From Seongchinamella unica (lineage in GTDB: Bacteria > Pseudomonadota > Gammaproteobacteria > Pseudomonadales > Halieaceae), in assembly GCF_004354085.1 (NCBI RefSeq), contig NZ_SMSE01000002.1:744001-808000 (forward strand): DNA of 64,000 nucleotides. Reading direction: 5' to 3'. The notes below the pieces were generated by a model that did no database searches, was not told the origin of the DNA, and saw nothing but the letters and a program-made list of their open reading frames with translations. Position 1 is the stretch's first letter, and each line of letters starts with the position of its first letter. Below are positions 35,493 to 45,818 of the stretch, in pieces. The position numbers and the translations under genes were made by a program.

Positions 35493-37655
35493 CTACCCTA
35501 TACCCGGCTGCACCAGCCGCTTTTTGCGTCGCCGCCGGGCTGGCACGTTCATCCTCGACTTGGGGTATCGGGGCAGCTTACCCGTTTGCAGGTAACGATG
35601 AATTGATTCCTGGGAACGAATCCGGGTGGCCTTCTTCTTGCCGGGCACGTAGGCGTTGTCCTGGTCCTGGTCCAGTACCCGGGCCTTCACATTGTCGTGC
35701 CACTGCTGGTCGAGTATATCCTGGATAGTCTGCTGGGCGTCCTGGTCGAAAATGGGCACCAGCACCTCTACCCGGAAGTCCAGGTTTCGGGTCATCAGGT
35801 CGGCGGAACCAATCAGGTAGCGGGGGTTACCCCGATTGTAAAAAACATAGGCCCGCGGATGTTCCAGGTAGCGATCGACAATACTGATCGCCTGGATGTT
35901 TTCCGACAGGCCCTTCACCCCGGGCAGAAGCGAACACATGCCGCGAACAATCAGGTTAACCTTGACTCCAGCCTCACTCGCCTCGTACAGCTTCTTCACC
36001 AGGTCCCGGTCCACCAGGTTGTTGCATTTCAGGGTCATTTCGGCCCGGTAGCCCGCCCGCGCATTGGCGATCTCCGTCTCGACCAGCTCGGTCAGGCCGG
36101 GACGACTGCTGTGGGGCGAAACCAGCAACAGGCGGTACTCGGGACGGCGATAGGTGTACTGCAGGAAGTCAAACACGTTGTAAACGTCCTTGCCCACATT
36201 CTGGTCATAGGTGATCAGGGTGAAGTCGGTATACACCCGCGCGGTTTTCTCGTTGAAATTACCGGTGCCGATGTGGCTGTAATAGCGCATGCCGCCTTTC
36301 TCCTTGCGCTCGATCAGCACCAGTTTGGAATGCACCTTCAGGCCCGGAATGCCGAAAATCACATTGATACCGCTTTCCGTAAGACGCTCGGCCCAGCTGA
36401 TATTGGCCGCCTCGTCGAAACGCGCCGCCAGTTCCACCACCGCCAGTACCCGCTTGCCATTGTCTACCGCGTTGACCAGCGCATCGATTACCCTTGAATT
36501 TTTGGCCACACGGTACAGGCAGATTTTGATGTCGGTAACATCGGGATCCAGCGCCGCCGTTTTCAGCAGGTCTATTACGTAGTCAAAGGGGTGATAGGGA
36601 TAGTAGAGAAAGACATCTTTCTCGCGAATGGCGTCAAAGATACTCCCCGGCTGATCCAGCCTCTCGAGGCGAATTGGCGGCAACGGCTTGAATTCAAGGT
36701 ACTTGGGTCCCACGTTGGGGAAACCCATGAAATCCTTGGAGTTGTGATAACGTCCGCCGGCGATCAGGCTGTCATACTTGCTGAACCCGAAACGGGCGCA
36801 AATGTAGTCCAGCAGCCGCGTCGGGATTTGCTCGTCATAGACCATGCGCACCGCATCCGCCTTGCGACGTTGCTTCAGGCTCTTGGTCATTTTATCGATC
36901 AGGCTTTGTGAAATACCGGTATCAATTTCCAGCTCCGCATCGCGAGAAAACTTGAAACAATAAGCCTGTGCCTCGTCCACCTGGATTACGCCGCGGAACA
37001 TCTGTGGCAGGCATGCCCTGATGATGTTATCGAGTACGATAAAAACCTTGCCTCCCTTGCCCCTGCGCCGCGGTATTTCAACAAAACGGTCGAGGCGGTC
37101 TGTTGGCACCTCCACTACCGCGTAGTGGTAATCGTCGCCCGAGCGAATGTCTACTGCCAGGTACAGGGACTCGTCGTTAAGTGCGGGGATCGGCCTGCCC
37201 TCCACCACCAGTATGGGTTCCAGCTCCGGCAGTACCCGTTGGGTGAAGTAGCGCTGCACGAAAGCCATCTGCCCCTCGTCCAGTTGCTGCTCGTTAATCA
37301 GGTAAATCTTGCGCAGGGCGAGCTCTTCCATGATCTGGATGTAAATCCGGTCGAACTCCTTTTGCAGCCGCACCACGCCCTCGAGGATTGCGGCCAGAAG
37401 GTCCCTGAAATGCTGCCGGTTGGTGCCGCTGGCTACCGAGATCAGGCGCTGCACCTCCGCCACCCGCACCCGGAAGAACTCATCGGAATTGTTGGAAAAA
37501 ATGCCGAGGTAACGCAGCCTCTCGATGAGTGGCACGGTCTGGTCAGCCGCTTCCTGCAGTACCCTGGCGTTGAAAGACAGCCAGCTCAGTTCTCTCGGGT
37601 AGAACAGTTCGTGCTCGCGCAAATCCGCTGCACGTGTCTTGATGGGGTTTGCCAT
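35493..37655 (-). CDS. ppk1: Polyphosphate kinase 1
   Basis: 720 aa, full length. PPK1 makes polyphosphate from ATP. The phospho-acceptor histidine is in VHSKLVLIERK (near 441), followed by YSHIGTGNFNEKTARVYTDF. The N-terminal ELSWLSFNARVLQEAAD and the second HKD-like part (KCNNLVDRDLVKKLYEAS) complete the family pattern. No ppx exopolyphosphatase is next to it. Basic C-terminal tail (ARRRRKKR). Confidence 0.95.
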   Translation of the reverse strand: MANPIKTRAADLREHELFYPRELSWLSFNARVLQEAADQTVPLIERLRYLGIFSNNSDEFFRVRVAEVQRLISVASGTNRQHFRDLLAAILEGVVRLQKEFDRIYIQIMEELALRKIYLINEQQLDEGQMAFVQRYFTQRVLPELEPILVVEGRPIPALNDESLYLAVDIRSGDDYHYAVVEVPTDRLDRFVEIPRRRGKGGKVFIVLDNIIRACLPQMFRGVIQVDEAQAYCFKFSRDAELEIDTGISQSLIDKMTKSLKQRRKADAVRMVYDEQIPTRLLDYICARFGFSKYDSLIAGGRYHNSKDFMGFPNVGPKYLEFKPLPPIRLERLDQPGSIFDAIREKDVFLYYPYHPFDYVIDLLKTAALDPDVTDIKICLYRVAKNSRVIDALVNAVDNGKRVLAVVELAARFDEAANISWAERLTESGINVIFGIPGLKVHSKLVLIERKEKGGMRYYSHIGTGNFNEKTARVYTDFTLITYDQNVGKDVYNVFDFLQYTYRRPEYRLLLVSPHSSRPGLTELVETEIANARAGYRAEMTLKCNNLVDRDLVKKLYEASEAGVKVNLIVRGMCSLLPGVKGLSENIQAISIVDRYLEHPRAYVFYNRGNPRYLIGSADLMTRNLDFRVEVLVPIFDQDAQQTIQDILDQQWHDNVKARVLDQDQDNAYVPGKKKATRIRSQESIHRYLQTGKLPRYPKSRMNVPARRRRKKRLVQPGIG

Positions 37656-37783
37656 GATAGCCCTGTTTCAGTCTGGTAGCCCGCACGGTCAGGCCTGTAT
37701 TCAGTCACCGCATCAGCATAGTACAGGATTATGACAGCTGCGGGACGCAGCTGGTCCAGAGCCCCGTCAACCAGGAAAAGGAT

Positions 37784-37807
37784 AAAAAAACCCGGCGTTA
37801 AGCCGGG
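37784..37807 (-). terminator. Rho-independent terminator, distal copy
   Basis: CCCGGC/GCCGGG stem with a 5-base loop (37791-37807), followed on the minus strand by seven T. It ends transcription of the 134-aa gene before ppk1. Confidence 0.8.
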
Positions 37808-37877
37808 TAAGGTAGGGATTACCTACAGGGGATAGGGGTGCCGCTGCGCAGACAGGGTGTTGCCAGCCGCTGTGTTT

Positions 37878-37918
37878 AAAAAGAGCCCGGTTGCTCTCCG
37901 ATACCGCTGGAGCCGGGC
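37878..37918 (-). terminator. Second, looser terminator-like hairpin
   Basis: GCCCGG (37885-37890) pairs with CCGGGC (37913-37918), with an inner CTCC/GGAG stem and five T after it on the minus strand. A near-identical 18-19-base segment abuts both hairpins (37802-37819 and 37912-37930), so the unit looks duplicated. Confidence 0.5.
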
Positions 37919-37954
37919 CAAGGTAGGGATCTCCAGTCCTACAACTCTTTGGCT

Positions 37955-38359
37955 TCAGGCAGCCGCCTGTTGAATCTCATCGCCATAAGTTTTGGCTACC
38001 GCGTCAAAGCTGTAATCTTCCATACCCAGCTCTTTCAGCACAGCCATGATGTTGTCGCCGCTGCGGGAGTCTATGCGCTTCTGGATCGCCGCCAGCAGGC
38101 CGTAGCGGTTGACCATTTGCCAGGTGCCTGTGGCCCGGGTGCGCTTACCCTTGCTGTAACCCAGTGCCTCTTCGTAGGCGTAGATTGCCCTGACCGCGGC
38201 AAATTCGGCTTCAGTGTCTGTGCCGTGTTGCTCTGCCCGCAGGTCAACTGCCCGGCGGTAGGCTTGCAGGGCCAGTTCCGGGTGACCGCGCTTTTTGGCA
38301 TTGCGCGCAAACACGTAACACAGCTCCGGTTCCTTGATTCGTTCCACTAATTCGTGCAT
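37955..38359 (-). CDS. Conserved 134-aa hypothetical protein, TPR-like
   Basis: 134 aa from the ATG at 38359, which has GGGAG upstream. Residues 10-40 resemble a TPR-like helix pair (YVFARNAKKRGHPELALQAYRRAV). The middle part KGKRTRATGTWQMVNRYGLLAAIQKRI recalls an uncharacterised domain seen in many short bacterial proteins. Cytoplasmic, no signal peptide. Its promoter region carries a 21-base direct-repeat pair also found before the 84-aa gene at 39798-40052. Function unknown. Confidence 0.75.
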   Translation of the reverse strand: MHELVERIKEPELCYVFARNAKKRGHPELALQAYRRAVDLRAEQHGTDTEAEFAAVRAIYAYEEALGYSKGKRTRATGTWQMVNRYGLLAAIQKRIDSRSGDNIMAVLKELGMEDYSFDAVAKTYGDEIQQAAA

Positions 38360-38415
38360 GTCGTTCTCCCTATTGCAGTTCGCGCTTTTTGGCTTGCGCG
38401 CTCGGTATGAGAGAC

Positions 38416-38484
38416 ATATTAGGGATCGGCAGGCAATTTCCACATGGCCGGAAGCGCCAACTGCATGGCCGCGGGCGTCACTCC
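38416..38484 (-). promoter_or_regulatory. 21-base direct repeats and -10 box of the 134-aa gene (site A)
   Basis: Units at 38443-38463 and 38464-38484 share the pattern CATGGCCGnnnnCGyCA in head-to-tail order. Read on the minus strand, a TAATAT -10-like box (38421-38416) follows after exactly 21 bases. The same layout occurs at site B (40082-40150). Tandem units two helical turns apart suit an AraC-type activator. Confidence 0.6.
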
Positions 38485-38596
38485 CTGACGGGGGTTAGAA
38501 AGATTCCAGGTTTAAGCCCTATTACCATGATTCTTATAGGTTTTCAGTAAGCATTAACGATGGCTTGAGGCGCAGGGGCAGGCTGATAAAAGTGAC

Positions 38597-38628
38597 AAAA
38601 AAGCCCGCTTCACAGAGTGAGGCGGGCT
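38597..38628 (-). terminator. Rho-independent terminator of the Usp gene
   Basis: AGCCCGC (38602-38608) pairs with GCGGGCT (38622-38628), and a T-run follows on the minus strand. Between here and the Usp stop there is also an inverted repeat AGCACGT/ACGTGCT near 38675-38698 and a short tandem repeat of GGGACGCCC near 38774. Confidence 0.8.
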
Positions 38629-38791
38629 AACAGCCGTATGTTTCGGGGCAGAAACATCGGCCAGGGGACGTGTTAGCACGTGCAGGGAGCAACGTGCTTC
38701 TTGAAAAATAGACGCCCACGGCCAAAATGCAAACTTTTCACACAAAAGAATTCTGCCGGATTGAGGGACGCCCGGTTCCGGGACGCCCAAT

Positions 38792-39661
38792 TCAGGGTTT
38801 GAGGGCGAGAACGTCCGTTTTCAACTGCCCGAGCACCCGCTCGGCCGTATTGCCGATCAACTTCGCCCTGACGCCCTTGCGCCCTACCGTGCCCATTACG
38901 ACCATCTGCGCCCGCATGCTGGCCGCCTGGCTGGTGATGACCTTTTCAACGGGCCCTCGCTTGACCACAAACGCTTTCAGCGGGAGATCGAACTGGCGGG
39001 CAAGGGCCTTGATGTGTGGCGCCATCGCCTGTTTTGCCTCGGCCACGTAGCTGCGACTGTCAATGAGATCCAGGTCTTCCAACAGGGTCGGCACCTCTAC
39101 CGCACAGATGATATGGAGTTGTTCATCCATGGCCTCGGCCAGCGCTATGGCCTGGGAGAGAATTGTCGCGTTAAGTTGTTTCTTGGCGGCGATGCGGCTG
39201 GACAGGTCAAGCGCAGCCATCACCGGCTGGGTGCGTCGCCATTTTTTCTTCGCCACAATGAGTACCGGCGCCGGGCACTCACGTAATAGCTGCCAATCAG
39301 TGGAGGTATTGGCGATACTCTCCGAGCGGCGCCCGGTTTTCACCACCATCTCGTAGGCGGTTTTGCCACAATGCCCGACAACCCATGGGGCCACATCCTT
39401 TTGCCATACCACCTTGAGCTTCACCTTCTGGCCTTCGCGCGACAACTTGTCTATCCGAGCCTGGACTTCCGCCTCCCGATCTTCCAGCAGGCGCTGCTTC
39501 AGGGCGTTTCGTTCCGCAGCCGTCTGCTTGAGGCGACCCAGGGGGGCGTAGACAAAGGCATAGACGTCCACTGAATAACCCAGTCTCGCAGCCAATTCCA
39601 GGCCGCGCCCGGTCGCAATGGCACTGTCTTTTTGGTCAGCGATTACCAGAATTTTACCCAT
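38792..39661 (-). CDS. Double-domain universal stress protein
   Basis: 289 aa with two tandem Usp domains (about 1-140 and 150-289). The C-terminal domain has the ATP-binding pattern G-x2-G-x9-G-(T/S): MGTVGRKGVRAKLIGNTAERV. The first domain lacks a clean copy. Start at 39661, nine bases after AGGGG; two ATGs just upstream are alternatives. A TATAAT -10 lies at 39697-39692 on the minus strand. Usp proteins promote survival under starvation, redox or membrane stress. It sits between two genes that share a promoter layout, but I see no such repeat before it. Confidence 0.88.
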   Translation of the reverse strand: MGKILVIADQKDSAIATGRGLELAARLGYSVDVYAFVYAPLGRLKQTAAERNALKQRLLEDREAEVQARIDKLSREGQKVKLKVVWQKDVAPWVVGHCGKTAYEMVVKTGRRSESIANTSTDWQLLRECPAPVLIVAKKKWRRTQPVMAALDLSSRIAAKKQLNATILSQAIALAEAMDEQLHIICAVEVPTLLEDLDLIDSRSYVAEAKQAMAPHIKALARQFDLPLKAFVVKRGPVEKVITSQAASMRAQMVVMGTVGRKGVRAKLIGNTAERVLGQLKTDVLALKP

Positions 39662-39797
39662 GGGCATCATCCCCTGTTGTTTGAAGCATGGATTATAGGG
39701 ACTTGCGGAAGGGAAAAAAGTAACCGAGGTCAATAAGTGGTGAAAAAAAGCGGGCGGCCACCGCGACGAGCGGTGGCCGAAAAGGAAAACAATAATG

Positions 39798-40052
39798 TCA
39801 GTGGGCGATCCCGACCGGATACCAGCGCGCGCCCGCTTGTTCCACCCGTCCTTCCTGTTGCAATTCAGCAAGCAGTCGCTCCACCAGACCCTCGTGGTAG
39901 AAATCACTCTTGTCCGGAGCCCATTCTGCCAGGAACCCGGACACCTCTTCGGTGGTGGCCCCGCGCCTGTAACTGACGCGCATGGACATATAGACCATTG
40001 ACTTGATCATGCGCATGACTTTGTCGGTAATCGCGATAATGGGGTTGTTCAT
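39798..40052 (-). CDS. Conserved 84-aa hypothetical protein
   Basis: 84 aa. The ATG at 40052 follows GGAGG at good distance; the open frame upstream is not used. Composition is mixed helical with Met-rich MVYMSMRVSYRRGATTEEVSGFL and a Trp/Tyr-rich C-terminus. The C-terminal two thirds look like a small winged-helix-like fold, which is a guess. No family recognised. Its promoter (site B) overlaps the end of the AraC-type regulator gene. Confidence 0.7.
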   Translation of the reverse strand: MNNPIIAITDKVMRMIKSMVYMSMRVSYRRGATTEEVSGFLAEWAPDKSDFYHEGLVERLLAELQQEGRVEQAGARWYPVGIAH

Positions 40053-40081
40053 GACACATCCTCCTTTTTGGGAATGTGTCC

Positions 40082-40150
40082 ACAATAGGCCCCGAACGGC
40101 GAGTTTGGCATGGCCGGCAACGCCAGAGGCATGACTGCTGGCGCCAGTGT
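40082..40150 (-). promoter_or_regulatory. 21-base direct repeats and -10 box of the 84-aa gene (site B)
   Basis: Units at 40109-40129 and 40130-40150 match site A (CATGGCCGnnnnCGCCA; the second unit is weaker in its first half). A TATTGT -10-like box (40087-40082) follows after exactly 21 bases, the same spacing as at site A. The outer unit touches the stop codon of the AraC-family gene. Confidence 0.6.
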
Positions 40151-41175
40151 CAGTCCCGGGTTGGAGAATCCCGGAAATCGGCCGGTGCCATACCGGTCCA
40201 GCGCTTGAACGCACGAGAAAAGGTACTGGGCTCGGAAAACCCCAGTAGATAGGCAGTTTCCACCACTGATCGGTTGGGGTGTTGGAGGTACTTGCGCGCC
40301 ATTTGCAGTCGCGTGTCCTGCAGCAGGTCCATGAAACTGGTGCCCTCTTCCTTGAGCTTACGCTGCAGGGTGCGATTGCTGACGTGCAGGGCCTCTGCGA
40401 TCTGTTGCTGGCTTGGGGGACCGTCAGGCAGGTGCTCCACAATTTTGTCGACTACATCCCTGGCGGTGGAATGCATGAGGAAGCTGTCCAGGTACGCCTG
40501 GGTCTGCTCATCATTAGCCCTGGCCAGCGCCGGGTCGCCGGTAACCAATGGCTCTAATATGTCTGAGCGGTACCAGCCCATACAGGTTCGCTCACAGGAA
40601 AAACTGACCCGCGATGCCAGCATCGATTCCCAGCGTTCAGGCTCTTCGGGCGGGGGGCGCTCCAGTTCCACCTTGACCGGCGCCAGGAAATCGCCCAGGG
40701 CGAGAGAGCACATCCGCGAAACCATCCCGATGGCATAATCCCGGCTGGCGAAATGATAACCGCCGGTGAGTGGCACCGTGCCAAGGTCCAGCAGGACCAG
40801 GTCACCCTCCTCTGCCAGCCGCATTACCGCCGCGGTGTTGACCAGCTTGCTGAACCGCGCCAGTCGCTTGAGCCCGTCGTACACCGTATCGCTGGCCAAC
40901 CAGGCAAAGCCAAGCCCATGCAGCGTCTGCGGTTGCACCTGCTCCGCCGCCAGCAGGCCAAACGCCTCATCTTCGGTGACGGCGACACAATGGGCCATCA
41001 GGGCTGTGAACATCGGCTGGGGCACCCGCCAGTCCGGGTTGGCGATTTTGGCCGGATCGATGCCCACCTCGGCCATTGTTTCCAGTGGGTCCAGCCCGCG
41101 CAAACGCAGCGCCTGGGCGATTGGCAGCAGAAAGGTGCCCAGCACAGAATGCTGTAGTGACAGGTCGTCGCTCAT
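40150..41175 (-). CDS. AraC family transcriptional regulator
   Basis: 341 aa. The N-terminal 200 residues are the arabinose-binding-like domain of the OruR/ArgR-type branch. The C-terminal AraC DNA-binding domain has both helix-turn-helix units: IAEALHVSNRTLQRKLKEEG (about 255-275) and the conserved ETAYLLGFSEPSTFSRAFKRWTG (about 305-328). It lies directly upstream of the 84-aa gene, whose promoter holds tandem 21-base repeats, so it is the prime candidate to bind sites A and B. The start codon lies inside a hairpin. Confidence 0.9.
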   Translation of the reverse strand: MSDDLSLQHSVLGTFLLPIAQALRLRGLDPLETMAEVGIDPAKIANPDWRVPQPMFTALMAHCVAVTEDEAFGLLAAEQVQPQTLHGLGFAWLASDTVYDGLKRLARFSKLVNTAAVMRLAEEGDLVLLDLGTVPLTGGYHFASRDYAIGMVSRMCSLALGDFLAPVKVELERPPPEEPERWESMLASRVSFSCERTCMGWYRSDILEPLVTGDPALARANDEQTQAYLDSFLMHSTARDVVDKIVEHLPDGPPSQQQIAEALHVSNRTLQRKLKEEGTSFMDLLQDTRLQMARKYLQHPNRSVVETAYLLGFSEPSTFSRAFKRWTGMAPADFRDSPTRD

Positions 41176-41203
41176 ATTGACTCCGGGAACACCTCGTCAA
41201 TAT
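41174..41203 (-). promoter_or_regulatory. Hairpin over the start codon of the AraC-family gene
   Basis: ATATTGAC and GTCAATAT arms (41196-41203 and 41174-41181) are perfect 8-base inverted copies around a 14-base loop. In the mRNA the second arm contains the first two bases of the ATG and the loop contains the Shine-Dalgarno region. It could block translation, or be a protein-binding operator in DNA. Confidence 0.45.
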
Positions 41204-41238
41204 ACCACTGCGCCGGGCATTGTCTGTAGCCACGCGGG

Positions 41239-41763
41239 CTACAGTCGGGAAAACTCCTTGTTCAGGTTATAGCGACGGGAGGTGACATAGGATTCCATGT
41301 CCTCCACTCTGCGCAGGGCCGCGTCGAGACGTTCCCGGGCTCGCTCCAGGCGTACGCTGCTTGACTCGCTGTAACGGAATACCTTGCGTGGCCGATAGTC
41401 GTGGTAGCGCTCGTCGTATTCCATCTCTACCTCGACATCCTCGAATTCCGGCTCGTCGTAATAATCGCCATCGCCGCCGCGACGGGTGGGCCTGGGCGCC
41501 AGCAATACCCATGCGCCCAGGTACACCCATAGCGCCAGGGTACCGGTGAACAGAAAGCCGCCGATCCAGATCAGCCGCACGACCCAGTGGGCGATGTCCC
41601 AGTGGTCCGCCAGACCGGCACAGACACCGGCGATTTTTCCGTCGCGGGTATTACGGTAGAGGCCCATGCCCCAACCACCGCGTTTGTTGTTGCGAAAACG
41701 TCGGCTTTCGCGCCGGTAGGTATCGCGATAGTCGTGGTGTTCATGTCTGCGTCTTCTACTCAT
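41239..41763 (-). CDS. pspC: PspC domain envelope-stress protein
   Basis: 174 aa. Residues 32-90 are a PspC domain (MGLYRNTRDGKIAGVCAGLADHWDI, then a transmembrane segment to about 86). The N-terminal 30 residues are very basic, and the C-terminal part is an acidic linker plus a coiled-coil. PspC with PspB senses inner-membrane damage and recruits PspA. Last gene of the psp operon, three bases after pspB. Confidence 0.92.
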   Translation of the reverse strand: MSRRRRHEHHDYRDTYRRESRRFRNNKRGGWGMGLYRNTRDGKIAGVCAGLADHWDIAHWVVRLIWIGGFLFTGTLALWVYLGAWVLLAPRPTRRGGDGDYYDEPEFEDVEVEMEYDERYHDYRPRKVFRYSESSSVRLERARERLDAALRRVEDMESYVTSRRYNLNKEFSRL

Positions 41764-42793: not shown

Positions 42794-42976
42794 TTACCAG
42801 CCGCGGGTCTGGGGCTTTTCCCCGGGGCTGGCTATCCAGTAAATAATCTCGATCACCGCAACAATCTGCACAAAACTCCACAGGCCGGCGGCGGTACCGA
42901 CCACCGCTGCCGTCAGTGCACAAAGCACCGCCAGCGCGGCATAAATCAAAAATCGTTCGCCCAGTTTGCTCATCAT
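42794..42976 (-). CDS. 60-aa membrane protein leading the psp operon
   Basis: 60 aa with two hydrophobic segments (about 9-27 and 31-49). It ends 18 bases before pspA and is the first gene after the sigma-54-like promoter, so it must be in the psp transcript. It does not resemble PspB, C, D, E or G as I know them. GGAAG precedes two adjacent ATGs; either may be used. A new small psp partner is possible. Confidence 0.65.
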   Translation of the reverse strand: MMSKLGERFLIYAALAVLCALTAAVVGTAAGLWSFVQIVAVIEIIYWIASPGEKPQTRGW

Positions 42977-43027
42977 TCTGCTTCCCTACGTGGATGATCG
43001 ACTTCTTTGCGTCGTACAACCCGATAA

Positions 43028-44651: not shown

Positions 44652-45818
44652 CTACTGGCTGATGGGCCAGCGCTGGTCATCGGTGTAAAAAGCAAAACGC
44701 CGGGCGATCAGCTCACGGGTCAGGCCGTACTCTTCCAGCCGATACTCGTGTTTGCCGTGCTTGCCCTTGGGGTTGGCCTCGATATGGGCGGTGAATGCGG
44801 CCCGGGCGGCACAGTCCAGCTCCATGCCGAATTGCCCATACACCCGCTCAACCACCCCCATCGGATCGTCCACCAGCTCCTGCTGGGAGCAATCCACAAA
44901 CAGCGCCGGGTCCAGTCTTGCCCGCGCCGCCAGCCCGCGCTCCAGGCTCAGGGCGTACCATTCCATCACCGCCCGGCCCATGTCTCCCGCGTCCAGGTGA
45001 CTGCAGTCACCGGCATACATGCCCATCACCACTTTGTTCATACTGTTAATGGAAGGCACTACCGCCTGCGGGTCCCGGTGGCACCAGACAAAACGCGCGT
45101 CGGGAAATACCTTAATGATGGCGTCGATGGCCAACATGTGCGCCGGCGCCTTGAGCATCCAGTGTTTGCCGGGCATACGCCAGTTGAGCAACTGCATTAT
45201 TTTCTTCTGGTAACGGTAGAGCGGCTCGAGGTCCTGGGCCAGCACCCAACTGTGATAGGGTTCCAGCATGATCTCGAACCCCAGCTGCACTCCGCCAAAG
45301 GCGAAGGCATGCAGTAACACGCACTCTTCCGGCGTGTCGGCATCGATGTAGTGAATTTTGGCGAAATCCGAATCCCGGGACTCTTCCAGTGCCCTGGCCA
45401 GGTAATCGTAGCGTGGATCCTTGTCTCCCGGGGCACTCCCCGGCCAGGGATCAGGAAACTGCACCTCCCACTGCAACAGCCCGCGATTGTCCGGGGCAGT
45501 CTCCAACAGATTGAGCAAAGCCGAGGTGCCGGAGCGCGGCAGACCGGTCACAAATACCGGTGCCACTATTTCCTGCTGCTGCCAGCCGGAAATGGTGTTG
45601 AAGGCGTTTTCCAGCTTGAGCCGGGTGGCCAGTTGAAATACTACCCGGTCGCGACAGCGTTTACGACCCTCCGGATCCCGGACGTGGCGGTCGTAGGTCG
45701 CCAGCAACGCGTCGAGACCTTCGCGATAAGGCAGGTCACCAAAATCACTGAACCCGGTCTGCTCCATTGCCTCGGCAATCAGCTCACCGGCGACAAAAGC
45801 TACCGTCTCTTCGCTCAT
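44652..45818 (-). CDS. Sulfotransferase family protein (PAPS-dependent type)
   Basis: 388 aa. The 5'-phosphosulfate-binding loop is VTGLPRSGTSALLNLL (about 90-105), and FVWCHRDPQAVVPSINS near 260 fits the 3'-phosphate motif. Related to the Stf/long sulfotransferase group common in marine gammaproteobacteria and mycobacteria. It may sulfate a lipid or sterol-like molecule; substrate not visible. The ATG at 45818 overlaps the DUF1214 stop (ATGA). Confidence 0.87.
   Translation of the reverse strand: MSEETVAFVAGELIAEAMEQTGFSDFGDLPYREGLDALLATYDRHVRDPEGRKRCRDRVVFQLATRLKLENAFNTISGWQQQEIVAPVFVTGLPRSGTSALLNLLETAPDNRGLLQWEVQFPDPWPGSAPGDKDPRYDYLARALEESRDSDFAKIHYIDADTPEECVLLHAFAFGGVQLGFEIMLEPYHSWVLAQDLEPLYRYQKKIMQLLNWRMPGKHWMLKAPAHMLAIDAIIKVFPDARFVWCHRDPQAVVPSINSMNKVVMGMYAGDCSHLDAGDMGRAVMEWYALSLERGLAARARLDPALFVDCSQQELVDDPMGVVERVYGQFGMELDCAARAAFTAHIEANPKGKHGKHEYRLEEYGLTRELIARRFAFYTDDQRWPISQ

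Follow-up and report, generated by a model that had tools for sequence, protein, structure and literature searches.

Tandem sites at two promoters point to an undescribed AraC-family regulon with a conserved RNA element in Halieaceae

A 64,000-nucleotide stretch of the Seongchinamella unica genome (contig NZ_SMSE01000002.1, positions 744,001 to 808,000; hereafter the window) carries two promoters of identical layout beside a gene for an AraC-family regulator. An initial annotation, made from the sequence alone, had proposed an undescribed small regulon in which an AraC-type activator binds tandem repeats before two genes, encoding proteins of 134 and 84 amino acids (aa). The conservation of the sites, the small number of random hits and the co-occurrence of sites and regulator among relatives support this proposal, and we consider it very probable that the neighbouring AraC-family protein activates these promoters through the tandem half-sites, the RNA elements behind the 134-aa gene likely being output of the same regulon. 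Tandem sites of the AraC type are already a known kind, and what is new is the regulon and, probably, the candidate small RNA that it carries: an open-licence literature search returned no description of the regulon, in keeping with the initial annotation, or of the UCCCUACYUU element, and among the papers listed for matches to the motif letters none concerned bacterial RNA by title.

Site A, before the 134-aa gene, and site B, before the 84-aa gene, share one architecture (Table 1). Read on the minus strand, in the direction of the genes, both consist of TGNCGNNNNNNGNCATG-N4-TGNCGNNNNNNGNCATG, followed by 21 nucleotides (nt) and then a −10 box; by position, CATGGCCG begins at both 38443 and 38464 in site A, while in site B CATGGCCG begins at 40109 and CATGACTG at 40130. 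The 21-base step within each repeat pair, the −10-like box 21 bases past the repeats at both promoters and the location of the AraC gene directly upstream of site B, with 3 nt between stop codon and site, were all as first described, and open reading frame (ORF) coordinates confirmed the positions of the three genes. The consensus first given for the repeat, CATGGCCGnnnnCGCCA, was somewhat too tight; across 50 half-sites the letters that never or hardly ever vary are TGNCGNNNNNNGNCATG on the minus strand. With up to three mismatches allowed, sites A and B were the sole two matches to the two-repeat pattern in the window, where shuffles lead to an expectation of 0.01, and they were also the only exact two-repeat matches across the 4.19-Mb genome.

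Table 1. Coordinates of the regulator, sites, target genes, RNA elements and neighbouring genes in the window (bp, base pairs)
Feature	Position	Strand	Description
AraC-family regulator, 341 aa	40150..41175	(-)	Proposed activator; Arabinose_bd PF12625 + HTH_18 PF12833
Site A	38443..38480	(-)	17-bp half-sites 38480-38464 and 38459-38443, 4 bp apart, 21-bp period
−10 box of site A promoter	38416..38421	(-)	TAATAT, 21 nt downstream of site A
Site B	40109..40146	(-)	Two 17-bp half-sites, 21-bp period, 3 nt past AraC stop codon
−10 box of site B promoter	40082..40087	(-)	TATTGT, 21 nt downstream of site B
134-aa protein	37955..38359	(-)	All-helical, weakly TPR-like; matches in 20/78 genomes
84-aa protein	39798..40052	(-)	Predicted long helix and winged-helix-like fold; matches in 8/78 genomes
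Element E1	37876..37930	(-)	UCCCUACCUU + terminator-like stem, just past 134-aa stop codon; candidate small RNA from the 3' untranslated region
Element E2	37784..37833	(-)	Second copy, CCCUGUAGGUAAUCCCUACCUU + GC stem + U7, 111 nt on from E1
Universal stress protein, UspE-like	38792..39661	(-)	Below UspE model cut-off; locus-conserved context
ppk1	35493..37655	(-)	Conserved downstream neighbour; context

The sites are conserved in relatives together with the register of the −10 box. A set of 78 genomes, which includes that of S. unica, was searched for the 134-aa protein, the 84-aa protein, the site and the AraC protein, and an upstream site was accepted where a match to the two half-sites lay at most 300 nt before the start codon and scored above all 200 shuffles. 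By this measure the repeats lie upstream of 17 of the 20 orthologues of the 134-aa gene and of all 8 orthologues of the 84-aa gene, in agreement with the expectation that orthologues would carry them. The remaining three 134-aa promoters were left out of the −10 count, which therefore covers 25 of 28 orthologous promoters; one has the site farther upstream, before small ORFs (genome G013), and two (G015, G038) have no site within 300 nt. TANNNT stands at offset 21 in 25/25 site-bearing promoters and occurs only once otherwise at offsets 10-35 (at offset 24). Across the corresponding 50 half-sites, positions 2, 4, 12 and 15 are invariant and positions 1, 5, 14, 16 and 17 vary at most four times, and the spacer between site and −10 box diverges between the 134-aa and 84-aa families while the repeats and the −10 register stay. 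Random hits were few, as anticipated: the pattern with at most one mismatch matched in 22/78 genomes and its reversed control once overall, and the composite of site and −10 box with at most two mismatches was found in 23/78 genomes, with one control match.

The composite also tracks the regulator. Within the family, 100 genomes with completeness of at least 85% were scored for the composite (at most one mismatch) and for an AraC orthologue (E ≤ 1e-70); the composite was present in 24 and the orthologue in 29, such that 24 genomes had both, 5 the AraC orthologue only, none the composite only and 71 neither (Fisher P = 1.5e-18, in related genomes), and the reversed composite gave 0 matches across the set. 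Since relatedness inflates this P value, contrasts within genera weigh more. In genus g6 the composite occurs in exactly the three AraC-bearing genomes (G037, G119, G126), in genus g2 both are present in G035, G089 and G090 and neither in G008, and in genus g25 both are present in G031 and neither in G091. Scoring the site alone (at most one mismatch) against the AraC protein in the 78-genome set gave 20 genomes with both, 4 with AraC only, 2 with the site only and 52 with neither. A second AraC protein in G001, 54% identical, likewise has an adjacent site.

The regulator belongs to the AraC/XylS family by its C-terminal double helix-turn-helix (PF12833, 84.2 bits against a cut-off of 33.6; PF00165, 38.0 against 26.6) and to the Arabinose_bd subgroup by its N-terminal PF12625 domain (124.1 bits, cut-off 27.6), and it may be under the control of a ligand. 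It aligns with the QhpR and GliR models along most of its length and falls below both NCBIfam equivalog cut-offs (195.4 bits versus 250 for QhpR, 138.4 versus 570 for GliR), so neither identity was assigned. The closest solved structure is VirS of Mycobacterium tuberculosis (PDB 8rcx, 5.1e-15, nearly full length), to which the regulator is nevertheless only distantly related; VirS target genes are unrelated to the targets here. A plasmid search with the protein covered 1004 records, none above 60% identity. In G007 (L132 / L166) the orthologue matches only residues 151-337 in one frame, and the gene may be broken there or read differently.

Three characterized systems provide a frame for these promoters. 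At pBAD of Escherichia coli, araI1-I2 consists of two direct half-sites. The description of that promoter in PMC11434276 has AraC I2 spanning −35 to −51, and the proximal half-site here would likewise lie over the −35 region, at about −34 to −50 if transcription is assumed to start 7 nt past the −10 box; with start sites so assumed, all 25 site-bearing promoters have this pBAD-like class II geometry. The half-site sequence and the N-terminal domain (PF12625 here) differ from those of the arabinose system, and arabinose is not implied. Pseudomonas aeruginosa SphR, in the site data of PMC3900636, recognizes TGNCCSNNRNNSNCC as a pair of direct repeats with 6-8 bp between them, and these share with the sites here the form TGNC...SNCC, a 21-23-bp period, few genome hits and a −35 far from consensus; the half-site, however, is TGNCC... 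rather than TGNCG...GNCATG, and sphingosine genes are absent from the targets seen. For GliR, the motif data of PMC8151288 give motif A, YYGGCGHTDTYSGMC, one copy of which overlaps −35, a placement shared by the site here, and the regulator is similar to GliR across residues 22-336 (138 bits), although far under the cut-off and with no glycerolipid genes among the targets seen. As judged from sequence, the motif resembles the P. aeruginosa GliR and SphR sites, and these published site formats, together with the matching geometry, lead us to read the promoters as probable class II activator promoters. A dimer of the AraC-family protein would bind the two direct half-sites, and the promoter-proximal one, overlapping the −35 region, would recruit RNA polymerase in the manner of AraC at pBAD. 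In S. unica, site B would serve the 84-aa gene, and site A the 134-aa gene together with the RNA elements at its 3' end; a 40-aa peptide (C3:527986) is a probable further target and a 156-aa protein (C3:233305) a possible one. The UCCCUACYUU-terminator elements would likely yield a small RNA, either by processing of the 134-aa messenger RNA (mRNA) or, in certain relatives, by direct transcription.

The regulon is likely to be larger than the two uncharacterised proteins first named: this genome offers two more candidate promoters, and relatives add others. A relaxed pattern found three more one-mismatch places in the S. unica genome (C3:527986, C3:233305, C5:51854), and the first two precede plausible genes, for the 40-aa peptide MKKFVPFVFIAIMSGLIGAK... 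and the 156-aa protein, respectively. With at most two mismatches there were 10 matches versus 2 in the control, and a search with the motif GATCCCTACCTT... was swamped (32 versus 14). Among the composite places inspected, members of the 156-aa family lie behind sites in seven genomes (G000, G001, G002, G003, G005, G006, G007), with 144-159-aa relatives in G022, G029, G044 and G045; 38-47-aa peptides do so in six (G000, G001, G002, G003, G005, G006) and a 106-107-aa protein in two (G001, G002). A beta-helix protein (Pfam Beta_helix, 71.7 bits) follows a site in G001, with a similar one in G035, and in G006 (L062, C39) an HMG-CoA reductase gene (411 bits) has a site in front of it and is divergent from the gene of a 34%-identical AraC protein. 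Further target families are also seen behind sites in relatives, some of these sites lying beyond the limits of the composite pattern. None of six small proteins (four site-adjacent ones, a 59-aa protein of the phage-shock (psp) operon and a 72-aa ORF) scored over a Pfam cut-off. Naming the 134-aa protein by fold was abandoned, since its AlphaFold model is confident (predicted local distance difference test score, pLDDT, 94.5) but had 0 Foldseek matches at E ≤ 0.001, and a TPR identity was likewise rejected, the Pfam similarity being under cut-offs; the 84-aa model (pLDDT 88.6) resembles winged helices, with 0 structural matches at E ≤ 0.001. At L251 and L252 (G043, G021) a site and −10 box lie between AraC and the universal stress protein gene (usp), an interval in which no homologue of the 84-aa protein was detected, and another target, ORF-less or diverged, may lie there.

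Past the stop codon of the 134-aa gene lies a short RNA element whose motif is conserved. Of 23 named loci, 21 carry CCCUACY within 130 nt of that stop codon, where the background is 0.02 per such stretch, and at least two motif copies fall within 450 nt in 11 of the 23 (none in L183). Alignment of 29 of 34 elements (leaving out E1 and E2 of G021, E2 of G016, and those of G038 and G015) showed six invariant bases outside the stem, namely CCCU and two further motif bases, and three more conserved in at least 90%; within the core CCCUAC, CCCU and the second C are invariant and A is kept in at least 90%. The stems differ, and RNAalifold predicted no base pair on the mixed alignment. In five genomes from four genera (G004; G031, contig 252; G044, contig 193; G037; G126) a site and −10 box lead into a stretch of 74-217 nt that ends in the element and contains no ORF of at least 10 codons behind GGAG, GAGG or AGGA. 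Those in G031 and G044 are additional copies, the 134-aa gene lying on other contigs; that in G037 occupies the syntenic place (AraC-usp-site-element-DUF808); and in G126 the site follows AraC on the same strand at a distance of 1.2 kb. We regard these ORF-less cases as evidence that the promoter serves the element and not the protein alone, and they suggest a small RNA. TCCCTACYTT with a T6 run nearby occurs in 25/78 genomes, a few of which have no AraC protein and no evident stem.

The motif resembles the anti-Shine-Dalgarno tail of 16S ribosomal RNA, which makes pairing with ribosome sites a natural guess. The CcsR 'cuckoo' RNAs of Rhodobacter, which are linked to a stress regulon and lie behind a small protein gene, carry a C-rich, anti-Shine-Dalgarno-like motif, CCUCCUCCC; the motif here is UCCCUACYUU instead (core CCCUAC), which places the element outside the CCUCCUCCC group, and the bacterial class is another. 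A scan of positions 37500-41300 with 4227 Rfam families gave none above the gathering score, the best being SorX at E2 (19.9 bits versus 46.6), which was rejected as its identity, and in an Rfam scan of six loci only a tRNA passed, away from the element. The regulator's lasting output may be a family of small RNAs whose seed, UCCCUACYUU, is anti-Shine-Dalgarno-like; its members would lie behind the 134-aa gene in some cases and be made on their own in others. Two observations stand beside these. At five loci (L026, L028, L029, L030, L032) from several genera, an ORF of 70-80 aa, for example MKTVALQKSHGESAV..., lies past the first element and has no Pfam match over the cut-off; a similar ORF in G013 precedes the 134-aa gene. 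The S. unica genome also has a third UCCCUACUUU-terminator element (L147 position 1502; G000:C1:1492362), of which G006 has a corresponding copy (L144); it follows a gene that appears to encode an acyl-CoA dehydrogenase, and the stretch fetched around it contains no AraC site.

Several observations weigh against the proposed regulon or against its extent. The composite, at the same limit of one mismatch, is absent from 5 of the 29 AraC-bearing family genomes (G015, G027, G038, G045, G087), G045 having the repeats with the −10 box off register; no site was apparent upstream of the AraC gene itself; and related genomes are non-independent samples. Membership is uncertain for the weak sites, since controls with at most two mismatches and no −10 box gave as many as 6 matches in one genome (G014). 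The 156-aa promoters show T-NN-AAT in place of TANNNT at offset 21 (CCAAAT in S. unica). The element and the regulator are not tied everywhere, as the element lies beside the 134-aa gene with no nearby site at L184-L187 and the site is present with the element missing at L183. The S. unica genome also held 27 AraC-like candidates at first look, so another paralogue could bind the sites. An alternative interpretation is accordingly that a different AraC-type paralogue, or some other regulator that binds direct repeats, uses the sites and that the adjacent AraC gene is a chance neighbour; the many AraC-like proteins per genome, the five genomes without the composite and the site in G006 adjoining the 34%-identical AraC protein would fit it, but we consider it improbable because the composite tracks this AraC orthologue across the 100 genomes and within genera, site B adjoins the AraC stop codon in a conserved locus order, and the motif is like those of AraC-type regulators. 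That the sites arose by chance was ruled out by the shuffle and reversed-pattern controls (1 match in 78 genomes and 0 in 100). The broader idea that the repeats reflect chance or shared ancestry and have no regulatory function draws on the mutual orthology, and hence non-independence, of the 134-aa promoters and on the concentration of the strongest sites in two gene families, but we regard it as extremely improbable given the same controls, the divergence of spacers around persistent repeats and −10 register, and the occurrence of the composite before unrelated genes as well.

How the element is to be understood is more evenly balanced. It could be a mere conserved terminator, or a signal for 3'-end processing or stability of the 134-aa mRNA, a serious possibility to which we give somewhat less than even weight: it ends in a terminator-like stem, it stays beside the 134-aa gene at L184-L187, where the site is absent, and it has no Rfam family above the cut-off. 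Against this, promoter and element occur without such an ORF in the five genomes described above, the conserved bases outside the stem go beyond a terminator's needs, and the element is often doubled. We lean slightly towards a small RNA, taken on its own and apart from the feedback on the psp operon considered below.

The psp operon adjoins the regulator gene and offers a possible target for such an RNA. A search for the complement AAGGTAGGGA before ATG gave 13 places among the matches listed, in 8/10 genomes, some of them the other strand of the element itself, and one match, in G006, fell at the gene that opens the psp operon there and encodes 59 aa. In the window the corresponding 60-aa membrane-type gene (42794-42976, minus strand) lies between pspF and pspA behind a sigma-54-like TGGCACgatttcTGTA, a label that presumes the sigma-54 consensus. 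Its ribosome site, GTAGGGA at 42989, is a perfect complement to UCCCUAC. Of the 7 genus members in which the 59-60-aa psp gene was found, 6 retain this heptamer (S. unica, G001, G003, G005, G006, G007) and G002 has TTAGGGA; the gene is absent from G004, and in two other genera (G014, G044) the first psp gene has other ribosome sites. GTAGGGA occurs 7 times in the window, twice just ahead of a start codon (psp and 44655), and on this count the heptamer may be no more than a variant ribosome site here; the instance at 44655 (minus strand) belongs to a 151-aa gene adjoining pspF. The gap between pspC and AraC spans 63 nt (41176-41238, minus strand) and contains an 8-bp hairpin, CTGTAGCC/GGCTACAG, with no T-run, so AraC may be co-transcribed with psp in this genus. 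A loop in which psp induction raises AraC and then the small RNA, which would cover GUAGGGA of the first psp gene as feedback within the genus, is conceivable, but we think it unlikely.

The loci come from Seongchinamella, Parahaliea, Pseudohalioglobus, Halioglobus and other Halieaceae, and the 23 named ones follow, with variations, the order psp-AraC-(site-84 aa)-usp-site-134 aa-element-ppk1-DUF808. In 16 of them an AraC gene was found ahead of the 134-aa gene. The contigs of L179 and L180 start at or just before usp; L182 and L184-L187 show no AraC, 4 of these 5 also having no site, and at L184-L186 the contig ends only 0.7-2.8 kb upstream of the 134-aa gene.

Our literature search found no paper that defines an AraC regulon in Halieaceae, the OM60/NOR5 clade, which PMC10100682, in its account of the group, presents as abundant coastal marine bacteria. 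The analysis yields for them a regulator, its site, a promoter geometry and a list of uncharacterised target genes that can be tested in cultured relatives, among them Seongchinamella, Parahaliea, Pseudohalioglobus and Halioglobus. Should the UCCCUACYUU element prove to be a small RNA, it would represent a family unmatched in Rfam, placed under an AraC-type activator that adjoins the phage-shock operon.

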